DNA of 22,710 nucleotides from a virus. Position 1 is the first letter of the stretch, and every line of letters starts with the position of its first letter. The stretch spans positions 1 through 22,710 of the IMG/VR virus record IMGVR_UViG_3300020408_000042. The stretch is one strand, 5' to 3'. Below are positions 14,551 to 20,500 of the stretch, one piece after another. A program made the translations under genes and the position numbers. The notes beneath the pieces were generated by a model, which saw nothing but the letters and a program-made list of their open reading frames with translations, had not been told where the DNA came from and searched no databases.

Positions 14551-17500
14551 ATGGATTTTGATTTTCGTCCAAGCCAAAACAAAGAGTTTGAAACTGAAAT
14601 TGAAACAGATGATGGTTTTGATTTTAGGCCATCACAGTTTGATTTTAGCGAAGAGCCTAAAGCAGTAGCGCCTAACAACGTTGTTAATGAAACTATTGAG
14701 CCAAACCCAATGCAACAGAGTTTTGGCAACACTTTAAAAAACATGGAGCAAAGCGATCAGCGAGGTATGTTTGAGCCAAAGCCAGTATTAGACAATGCTG
14801 GATTTCCAATAGATATAAATAGACCAATAGTATTTGACGATCAGGGCAATGCACAAACAGAAATGGGAATGACTATTGATGCAGCTGAATTAGGCTATCC
14901 GTTTAAACCTGGGCAAAGGTTTGTAAACATACCTACAGTTATTGATGGCGTGCCAATGTCAAGCGATGCTGCATTACAATTAACTAAAGAAAAAATAAAC
15001 AACAATACTTTAGACGCATCACAATTTCCAATGTTTGACTCGGCTGAAAAAGCTACAGCTGGTTCAATAGATAGATCAAACAAAATTGCTGAAATACGAA
15101 AAGACGATATTGAAAAAGCAAAAACGGAAAATTTAAGTAAAATAAAAAAGGCTACAAAACAAAATTTAGTTGATAACGAAATAGAAAGACTAACTAAACT
15201 TTACGGATCTCCAAGAAAAAATCAGGAAAATTTAAACAGAAACTCACAATCATCTGGAGTTGGTGGCACATACAACAATTTTTATCTTACCTTACCTATG
15301 GGTAAACAACCAATTGATAATGAAACAGCTATAAAAATGATAGCTGAAAGTAATATTAGTGAGGGAGAATATTCAAATTTACCTAATGCTGGATTATTTG
15401 GAGATTTAACAAGAGGCTTTATAAGAAGTAATAAAGTAATGGCATTGCTTACATCAAATTTTGGTTTAATGGATTTGCCGTCTGCTATTAAAATGATTGG
15501 AGAGTTAGATAGAATTACGCCTCCACAATCTGAAGATGTTAAAGCTGGCCTAAAAGAAATTACTGAAAGTAATTGGAAAAATGTATTATCGGCAATAAAA
15601 GATAACCCAGGTGCTGTGTTGTCTGTAGTCGCTGAATCTTTGCCATTATCTTTGTCTAGCTTGGCTACATTTATAACTGGAACGGCAGTAACTGGTAACC
15701 CTTTAGTTGGTGCAGCTGGTGGTGGTGTAGTTACTTTTGGTACTATTTATACAGATACAATATTAGAAGAACTGCGAAAAACTGGAGTGGATTTATCAGA
15801 CGATAAAGCAGTCTATAATACACTTACTAATGTTGAGTTTTATGATAAGGCAAGAAAATCAGCCATTGCTTATGGATTGCCTATAGCTGTATTTGATGCT
15901 TTGTCTATGGGTTTAGCTGGTAAGCTTGTTGCCCCAGCAATAAAAAGTGGAGCGTCAACTCCAAAGATAGCTGCATTATCTGCTGCTGAATTAGCTAATC
16001 AAGGATTTTTAGGTGGTGCTGGAGAGTTCGCTGGCCAATTTACGCAAAGTATTTTTGGTTTGCGTGATAAAATAAACGCTGGAGAAATTGCGTTAGAATT
16101 TTTTGCTGAATTGCCGTTAGGATCAATTGAAGTTGGAACAAATGTAGCAACATCAATAAAAAACAATCAGGCAGATGCAGAGTTTGATAGCGAGTTTGAC
16201 AAGGCAAGCCAAGGCATAGCTTTAGATACAGCTATAAACAATCTTAGTCCTGATAACGCACAGTTAAATGTTATTCCTGATAATGTAGACGACATTGATT
16301 TTAGATCAGGATTGCAAGAATCTCAGACTGTAGACTCACAGTCCTCCGTGGTTGCTCAGTCTGAGAACCAAACAACAGAAACACCAGTTGTAGAAACGCC
16401 AGTTGATACACCAGTAGAAACGCCAAAGCCAAGGCCTGAAACTATTAAGATTGATCCTGAACCAAAGCCAGTAGAAACCACAGAAGTTGAAGAGTTACAA
16501 ACAAAAGATACTAGCAAGCAAGTAAATGTTATTGGCGATTTTAGTGGTAAGTTTGAAAAGATAAGAACACCAGGATCAGAAAAAGAATTAGATGTAGCTT
16601 ACCTTGTTGTAGATGCTAATAAGTTAAAGCAAGCTACTGGAGATTTTCAGCCAAGAGATAGAGATTTAAAAGAATCTGATACCCTTGTTATAGATAGAGC
16701 AAGTAATCTTGATCCAAAACAATTATTTGAATCGCCAACAACAAATACTGGTGCTCCAATAATTAGTAAAAACGGAACAATTATATCAGGCAATGGCAGA
16801 GTGTTAAGCCTTAAAAAAGCAAAGGCAGATTATCCAGAGCAATGGAATAAATACATAACATCACTAGACGAATACACTAATGAAAAATTTAGTGCTAGGT
16901 CAGACGAATTGCCTATTTTAGTCCGTGTATTGTATGGAGATTTAACTAATCAAGAAATTATAGAAATAGCTGATTTATCTAATCGTGATACTGGGGCATC
17001 TATGAATGCTACAGAAAAAGCACAAAGAGATTCTAAAGCTATGGGAACAGATTTAGTTGTTCAGTTTAAAGGTGGCGATATAACAAGCTTAGAAAACAAA
17101 GCATTTGTAAATCAGTTTATACAAAAAGTTGTTACGCCAAACGAACAAGGAAATATGAGCCGTGATGGACAGTTAACCAGAGAGGGCGTGCAAAGAATAC
17201 AAAATGCTATATTAGCGTCAGCTTATGAAGATACTAATGCTTTAGCTACAATGTTAGATAGCACAGACGATAATATTAAAGCAATTTCTAACGCTATGCT
17301 TTCAGCTGCACCAAAGTTTGCACAATTAAAATCTAATATTGCAAGTGGTCAGGTTGAGGCAAAGTATGACATTACACCACAAATAACTGATATGGCACAA
17401 CGTATCTCTACAGCTAGAAGAGATGGTACAGCTATATCAGATATATTAAATCAAGGAGATATGCTTGCAGAAATCGATCCGTTGGTTAAGATGCTTATTA

Positions 17501-20500
17501 AGGGAATTTACAACGAGAAGTTAACAAGAGCAAAATCACAGAAATTTATGACTGAATTTCTAAATGCTTACGTTGAAGAGTCCAGCAAAAAACAAACTGG
17601 TGGAATGTTCGAGGACGATACCACAGTTGGAGAAGTAATCGAATTAGCAAGGAGTAAAGCAGATGGCCAACAAGATCCAACCCTCTTCGAAAGAAGCGCA
17701 GACGGCAGCAGTCAACGCACTACTAAGAGTAGCCAACAAAAACAAAGAGCCAGTACTAAGAGAAGCAGCGCTAGAACTGAAGAAAGAGTTGGAAAGCAAG
17801 AAGAGTTAAAAGATGCAGCCGTTGAACCGAATAGGGAAATTGCCTCACGATCCGATATTACGGAGGCAATCATTGTCGAAAACAAAGACAGTTACAAAAA
17901 CCAAAGAGTCGAAAAGCCAGGAACGCTTGTCGACAAGCTCGCAGAAAGAAACAAAACAGCGTTAATCTTCTCTGCGTTTGAAGCAGCTGGCGTTGATCCT
18001 GATATTGCCGTTAACTTACCAATAGAAAGACAGTACCAAATACTACAAAAAATGTTTGTGGATCAGTTTGGTATGAAACAAGTTACTAAATCTTCAGACA
18101 AAAATACTAAAGATGCAGTAGACCAATTACTTACTGGCTTTCACAATTTATCAGCTTTAGCTAATTTCTTTGGCTTGCCATACAAAGCTATTGGCTTAGA
18201 GGGAACTCTTACTTTTGATATGGTAGAGAGATACAATGCTTATGGAAGTTACTCCCCAGGGTCAAAGACAATAACAATACCAAGAAGAGTAAACAGTTTT
18301 GCCCATGAGTGGTTTCATGCGTTAGATCATTATATTTTTCAAAAGTTTGGCGTGCTTACAGAAGAAGATATTTTTGGTGGTAGGTTAATGAGCCAAGCCG
18401 TTAGAAAAGATGGATCAAAAGCAGTATTACCTGATGCACCTAAAAATCTAAAAGAGGCTTACACTAATTTAGTAAGAGCAATGTTTCAAGATAAAGCAGT
18501 AGAAGCACAAAAGCTTATTGAGATAGACAACGAAATTTCACGCATATCTAAAAAGAAGCCTGAAGCTAAAAAGATACAAACATTATTAAAGAGAAAAGAA
18601 AACATACTTGGTGGTAAAGCGTCAGCCAAAACAGTAGATAAAACACAATTTAGAAAAGACGCAGAGTTTTTTGCACCTATATATGGACAAAGCAAAGATT
18701 ACTGGGCATCGCCACACGAAATGTTTGCAAGAGTTGGAGAGGCTTTTACTACATACAAAATGAACCTTGCTAAGATGGACGCAGATTTTCTATCTAAAAC
18801 TAACGAGGGTTATCTTACAACATTAGAGCAGCTTGGCGTAACCAAAGAGGGATTACAAAATTCTGCAAATGTAGCTAAAATTTTAGACTCAAGAATGGCA
18901 TTGACATTTCCAAAAGAGCAAGAGCGTATGGAAATATTTGGTGCAATGCAAAATCTTATTGATGCAATATCACATGACACAGCTTTAGGCCTTGGAGAAA
19001 AAGGCAAAACACTATCTGAAGAAACAAGAATAGACGTAAGAAAGTTATACGAAATACCAAAAGAAAGATCTGAAAGCCTTATGCAAGAGCAAATGCGTGT
19101 TATGAATGAGGCAAAGTTATTTAACAATAGGCAAAAAGATAGACAAAAAGAATTAAACAAAGAAATAACACAAAAGAAACTGAGGACAAGATTATACGAA
19201 ACTATTGAAGATGCTTTTTTTGGACAGTTTTTTTATCAGAAACAAGGCGTTCTTAAATCAATAATTAAAAGATACCCACGGAACAGACAAATGCAATATC
19301 TGTTTCAAAACTTAGGAACGCAAGCTGGTGGTAAGCTGCAATCAAAAGTGCCAGGAGATAACTTTGCAAACGCTACAGTAAGGCAAGCTAGATTATTTTC
19401 ATTTCAGTTAACGAGTATTATAGAGCGTAACAAAATAAATGAAATGAGTGCAGACGATAGAAAGCTGTTAAGAATGATCTTAACTAGCCAAGATACGTTT
19501 GACTCAGCATCTCCACAAGTAAAAAAAGCAGCTGGACAATTGCGTGGATTGTTAAATGGAATTTACGAATACATAAGAAACTCAGGTTTGAATATTGGCT
19601 ATGCCGAATCTGGTTATATGCAAAGAGTTTTAGATATGGAAATGGTAAATGCAAGGCCATTTAAGTTTCAAAAGCAAGCAGCCAAAGCATACGAAATTAT
19701 TTTTGTGAATGAAGTTGGTAATCTGAATCCAACGAATGAAAAACAAATGCTTGCTGTTGTTAAATTTATACAAGAATCAAAGCTGGGGATTACAAGCAAG
19801 GAAGAGTTTATAAATTTTGTTACTTCAAAAGAGTATCGTGCCATTGTAGATAATATGGCCACAATTAAAAGGCTAAAGAAAAAAGAAAGAGATACTAGCC
19901 TAGACGATAAAGAGCAACAAGAATTAGAAAAAGCAGAAGAAAACTTACAAAACGCTATTTCTGAAATATCTGAAATGTATGAAACTTTTTACGCTGATAT
20001 GAAATTTGCATATGGAGATGTGTCAGCTACTAATTGGAAAAATACTTTATATGAAAAACAAGTGGGAGTTGCGTTAGACGCACCACCTACAAGTAACTTT
20101 ACAAAAAAACGTACGTTGCCACCTGAAACTGATGCTTTGTTAGATGAATTTTATGTAAGTGATCCAGTAGAAAACATTATTAGCTATGTAATGGGAGCAA
20201 CAAGGCGTGCAGAATATAATAGACGCTTTGGTGCACAAAAGATCCCAGTAGAAGATTCAGAGGGCAAAGTACCAAAAGGCAGATACAACGATTACCTTGA
20301 TTACCTTATGCAAAGAGGATTTAATAATGAGGGCGTAGCCGTAAAAGACGCTACATTATTTGCAGAAACAGTTAATCTTATTACTGGTAAATCAAGAACG
20401 CCTGGACAAAATGATAGCAAGGCATCTTCTTTTGCCCATCATATTGCTGCAATAACTTCTATTACACTTTTAGTAAGAGCACCAATAGCATCACTTGCTG

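Follow-up and report, generated by a model that had tools for sequence, protein, structure and literature searches.

The window analysed here, a virus contig of 22.7 kb (22,710 nucleotides), encodes terminase, portal-like and major head genes together with a giant gene that carries a DdrB-like ParB domain and, in a downstream module, an LPD1 domain. Between these two domains, a small open reading frame, ORF A, lies nested in the +1 frame of the giant and is followed after 3 bases by the start of a second one, ORF B. The coordinates of these features are listed in Table 1.

Table 1. Features of the giant gene and of its nested reading frames, in window coordinates.
Feature	Position	Strand	Remarks
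Host gene, giant polyvalent protein of 2,447 aa	14542..21885	+	PF18763 E 2e-25; PF18796 E 1e-8
DdrB-like ParB domain, giant residues 680-796	16579..16929	+	PF18763
Shine-Dalgarno (SD) AAGGAG of ORF A, 8-base spacing	17649..17654	+	SD-like motif before ORF A in nearly all relatives
Nested ORF A, 48 codons + TAA, +1 frame of giant	17663..17809	+	predicted basic helix-hairpin protein
Nested ORF B, 50 codons + stop, same +1 frame as ORF A	17813..17965	+	probable; second-lowest separate p3/p1 window, weaker than ORF A
LPD1 domain of giant, residues 1383-1476, downstream module	18688..18969	+	PF18796

The architecture of the giant (PF18763 and LPD1) matches that of the polyvalent proteins with DdrB-like ParB domains described in PMC5512222, the main text of which does not mention overlapping genes or frameshifts. 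Its DdrB region is ~30% identical to P1 DdrB and to eps15 gp16-like proteins. Homology and position together suggest that the giant is a virion or ejection protein. The first-pass annotation had called it an ejection protein outright; that label stands as an assignment by homology, through the DdrB-like domain and an eps15 gp16-like relative adjoining a pilot gene. The eps15 gp16-like protein of Alcaligenes phage Piluca resembles the giant in having a DdrB-like region and in lying among tail/ejection genes, but it ends soon past the domain and contains no nested ORF A. Judged by head protein and terminase, Microcystis phage Mae-Yong1326-1 and Rhizobium phage RHph_N65 are the closest cultured relatives of the window. 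The giant of the former showed no DdrB-like region, and no ORF of comparable size is annotated in the stretch of the latter that was inspected.

ORF A starts ~16 codons past the end of the wider DdrB-homologous region and encodes MANKIQPSSKEAQTAAVNALLRVANKNKEPVLREAALELKKELESKKS, followed by its stop codon. Its coordinates, frame, start and stop, and the AAGGAG at 8-base spacing, are all as first described. The main frame over the same bases is of low complexity, as had also been noted, and hydrophilic, with 14% hydrophobic residues. The + strand of the window has just four sites with the pattern AAGGAG-N5-10-ATG: three ordinary gene starts, at 511, 5908 (the major head protein) and 7023, and the site at 17663. 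A second AAGGAG inside the giant (window 17453-17467) has a TTG at 12 bases (17465), with no conserved ORF there as far as seen. Synonymous shuffling of the giant left the +1 frame open in 59% of cases; in 3.7% it was open and also had a start and SD. Taken as a single sequence, ORF A is within reach of chance and suggestive only; because of the comparative evidence, it stands far above chance.

The five nearest IMG/VR relatives, as well as L016 and L023, carry a +1 ORF of 48-49 codons with identical start and stop positions. The near relatives share the peptide core (L/M)(L/M)RVANKNK, and the main frame over ORF A is variable among them. In L016/L023 the start codon is GTG and the AAGGAG is retained. 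In both L015/L022 and L016/L023 the main frame has gained ~190 residues directly after ORF A. The comparison with homologous phages proposed in the first-pass annotation came out in favour of the nested frame, which is open in relatives, has the same start, SD and stop, and is less altered at the amino-acid level than the main frame. The opposite pattern, stops in the shifted frame and a conserved main frame, was seen in none of the six nearest relatives.

The conserved module downstream of ORF A served as the query for more distant relatives and yielded 76 loci. Profiles iterated from the window clade picked up 29 of the sequences, and a profile iterated from a distant high-GC clade, with versions of 81-87 residues, recovered 45 loci including the window. 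All 45 lie in phase +1 within a giant, most of them right after the DdrB-like domain, and the high-GC-clade search gave no match in any other frame, strand or place. A search with the nested peptide alone, in which the host frame was ignored, gave the same picture: each of the 30 loci inspected was a copy within a giant, in phase +1. The two ORF A subfamilies align over the hairpin in profile-profile comparison with modest support, and the residues R, ANK and R are invariant. The SD and the ATG or GTG are retained across most lineages despite ~35% main-frame identity. Nearly all distant loci have an SD-like motif at suitable spacing, several of them with a GTG start; in the most distant (L032/L034 and L036/L058) the SD is weak, a 3-base match. 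Most ORF A loci come from metagenomic contigs, and several are nearly identical.

Recognisable ORF A is absent from the DdrB-bearing giants L028, L037, L038, L044, L070, L075, L080 and L087, and it is therefore not indispensable to such giants. It is also missing from P1/eps15-like relatives. No stand-alone homologue was found in IMG/VR, species genomes or INPHARED phages, and no cultured phage carrying ORF A was found in INPHARED. Two contigs of one IMG record (2811995097; L089 and L090) have the same ORF A-bearing giant, possibly from a sequenced cell or isolate that could hint at a host. SD-preceded +1 ORFs also occur in Pseudoalteromonas phage Y3 (L095; 45 codons, ~29 codons past the DdrB region) and Aeromonas phage phiARM81mr (L101; 54 codons, ~20 codons past it). 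These two have no profile match to ORF A and are possibly due to chance, and they are not claimed as homologues.

Substitution patterns were used to assess selection on the two frames. Position 3 of the nested codons is position 1 of the host codons, so that selection on the nested frame should deplete host position 3 of substitutions in favour of host position 1, and such a shift was observed. Between the window and L021, synonymous and nonsynonymous changes in the main frame number 35 and 4 just upstream of ORF A, and 3 and 26 within it. The codon-position shift in ORF A was significant at P<0.05 in 19 of 21 pairs, with a pooled Mantel-Haenszel OR of 3.38 (p=3e-26; 13 non-overlapping pairs, no full phylogenetic model). 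A blind sliding scan of the giant in the window clade placed the p3/p1 minimum at 17656-17790 (0.36, vs a median of 1.85). Of seven other clades, five likewise have their minimum in ORF A; the minimum of the L043 clade runs from the end of ORF A into the start of ORF B, and in the L083 clade ORF A comes third. In 133 of the 136 pairs formed by 17 divergent loci, the nested peptides align better than the host peptides encoded by the same bases. Given the ORF A peptide, the main frame would be open with a probability of at most 0.03 in 24 of 25 loci; the host frame is therefore also maintained. By these comparisons the ORF A region is dual-coding, with both frames under selection. An RNA structure, it can be reasoned, would give no codon-phase-specific pattern.

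The peptide encoded by ORF A is hydrophilic (GRAVY -0.69), with a pI of about 10. AlphaFold2 predicted a two-helix hairpin for the window version (residues 9-27 and 30-45, mean pLDDT 81.6), which bears out the earlier description of the peptide as helix-rich. The 81-aa form is likewise predicted to be a two-helix hairpin (residues 18-35 and 38-53), so that both distant subfamilies appear to share the same fold. No significant profile match was obtained against Pfam, PHROGs or PDB; weak PHROG matches (E 0.01-0.6) each came from one member only and were rejected. Foldseek with the model returned generic helical hairpins only, none at E<=0.001. A lysis protein of the Rz/Rz1 or amurin type was considered and dismissed, as there is no membrane segment, hydrophobic stretch or lipobox cysteine. 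By sequence, ORF A appears to define a new family of small proteins that matches no known one.

ORF B, which the first-pass annotation had passed over, coincides with the next separate p3/p1 minimum of the giant scan (17797-17931). In many clades the stop of ORF A directly abuts the ATG of ORF B (TAAATG or TAGATG), an arrangement like that of termination-reinitiation. Where an insertion separates the two, ORF B has its own SD in L022 (AGGAGG), L051 (AGGAGGTG) and L077 (AAGGAG); L078 and L079, also with an insertion, have AAGGAG and a TTG start, and in L023 ORF B is preceded by a weak SD only. Inside the ~190-residue insertion of L015/L022 and L016/L023 the +1 frame is full of stops, and ORF B stays intact beyond it. 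The high-GC clade (MSEPVDLTG...) shows significant selection on ORF B, whereas the signal in the window clade is weak to moderate. Its peptides fall into four clade-specific families that profiles did not merge, and they are better conserved than the main frame in just 25 of 55 distant pairs. For these two reasons ORF B is graded as no more than a probable second nested gene.

Several other readings of ORF A were considered. A main frame rich in Q, R, S, T and K could lack +1 stops by chance, with a coincidental SD and ATG, and the synonymous shuffles, in which the +1 frame so often remains open and sometimes also has a start and SD, agree with this. The comparative data already refute it, however: with 45 loci in one phase, the reversed substitution pattern, the better-aligned nested peptide and a GTG start kept together with its SD, chance is hardly credible. 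A programmed +1 frameshift would make ORF A the tail of a fusion product with the DdrB domain, in keeping with the +1 phase at every locus and with the DdrB domain preceding it. The SD-to-start spacing is conserved, however, and L022 and L082 have a +1-frame stop immediately before the start codon, which leaves no room for a shift upstream of the conserved N-terminus and makes a frameshift product very unlikely. Finally, translation of ORF A might merely regulate ribosome traffic or the folding of the giant's domains, its product having no function as a protein. A pause in translation could help folding at the boundary of two modules, which is where ORF A lies, but the conservation is at the level of amino acids, the predicted fold is compact, and purifying selection on the peptide is replicated; we regard a purely regulatory role as improbable.

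Two origins are compatible with a nested gene. In line with the alternative given in the first-pass annotation, a once separate gene absorbed by fusion, genes A and B may have stood downstream of a DdrB-domain ejection gene and ahead of another large gene, until a lost stop joined the two large genes and made A and B part of a read-through linker. ORF A and ORF B lie exactly at the module junction, the main frame there is hydrophilic and of low complexity, and in the eps15-like phages Piluca and TPWB-05 the DdrB-domain gene ends ~85 codons past the domain and a separate large gene comes next. Against such a fusion, all ORF A-bearing giants are already fused, no stand-alone copy was found in the databases searched, and codon usage does not make ORF A the older frame, favouring the main frame in the window clade; a fusion is conceivable but not the origin we would expect. 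Alternatively, in a giant that was already fused, the +1 frame of the variable linker gave rise de novo to ORF A, and to ORF B with it. Codon usage over ORF A in the window clade (0.08 for the main frame vs -0.32 for ORF A), the lack of a stand-alone copy and the existence of giants without ORF A are consistent with this overprinting, which we lean towards. Pooled codon usage is equal in the two frames (-0.058 vs -0.075), however, and ORF A is so old that little signal is left.

Nested out-of-frame genes are a known kind of phage gene. Rz1 within Rz and gene B within gene A of phiX174 are same-strand examples; like ORF A, each is a small gene fully enclosed by a larger one, read in a different frame and having its own start and SD. 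ORF A differs from them in its host, a giant polyvalent ejection-type protein, and in its very deep conservation. Its predicted product is a soluble basic hairpin that has neither a lipoprotein signal nor a membrane segment, and ORF A is probably one of two tandem nested ORFs, unlike Rz1 and phiX174 B. In phage P1, ddrB, the prototype for the domain upstream of ORF A, also has a gene annotated within it, iddB (L009:3351-3749); this gene, however, is antisense and lies within the DdrB-homologous region. With no detectable similarity, the other strand and a different relative position, ORF A was not equated with IddB. The literature searched contained no report of the ORF A family, its giant host or its conservation. 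To our knowledge, nested genes in large tailed phages have rarely been proven, and annotation that forbids overlaps routinely removes them.

The stretch from 17663 to 17809 is thus, very probably, a genuine protein-coding gene that lies inside the giant in its +1 frame; both frames are under selection, and its product would be a self-initiated hairpin protein. Selection strongly supports the earlier proposal of a nested gene, which would be expressed on its own. Ribosomes would start at the SD and ATG of ORF A on the late mRNA of the giant and produce the 48-aa basic helical-hairpin protein. For ribosomes already translating the giant, these bases would encode a flexible hydrophilic linker that joins the DdrB-like domain to the downstream modules. 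ORF B would then be translated, probably by termination-reinitiation at the stop of ORF A. We infer that ORF A is initiated independently and co-expressed with the giant, and likewise infer its partner and role; its dosage would be tied to that of the giant via the common mRNA. As its likeliest role, proposed with reserve, ORF A might be an accessory of the giant, for example as an assembly or ejection chaperone or as a co-packaged small nucleic-acid-binding protein.

These results also show how, in a phage virion gene, measures such as a reduced synonymous rate can mask a second gene. Standard annotation overlooks ORF A, although dozens of environmental phages that are only distantly related have retained it. 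It is backed by many independent lineages, and it marks a junction in giants whose assembly and entry are poorly understood. Tentatively, ORF A and ORF B may represent a widespread, unannotated and translationally coupled pair at this module junction, two small basic proteins that aid the giant in assembly or genome delivery. If so, one stretch of DNA would encode both the linker of an ejection protein and that protein's partners.
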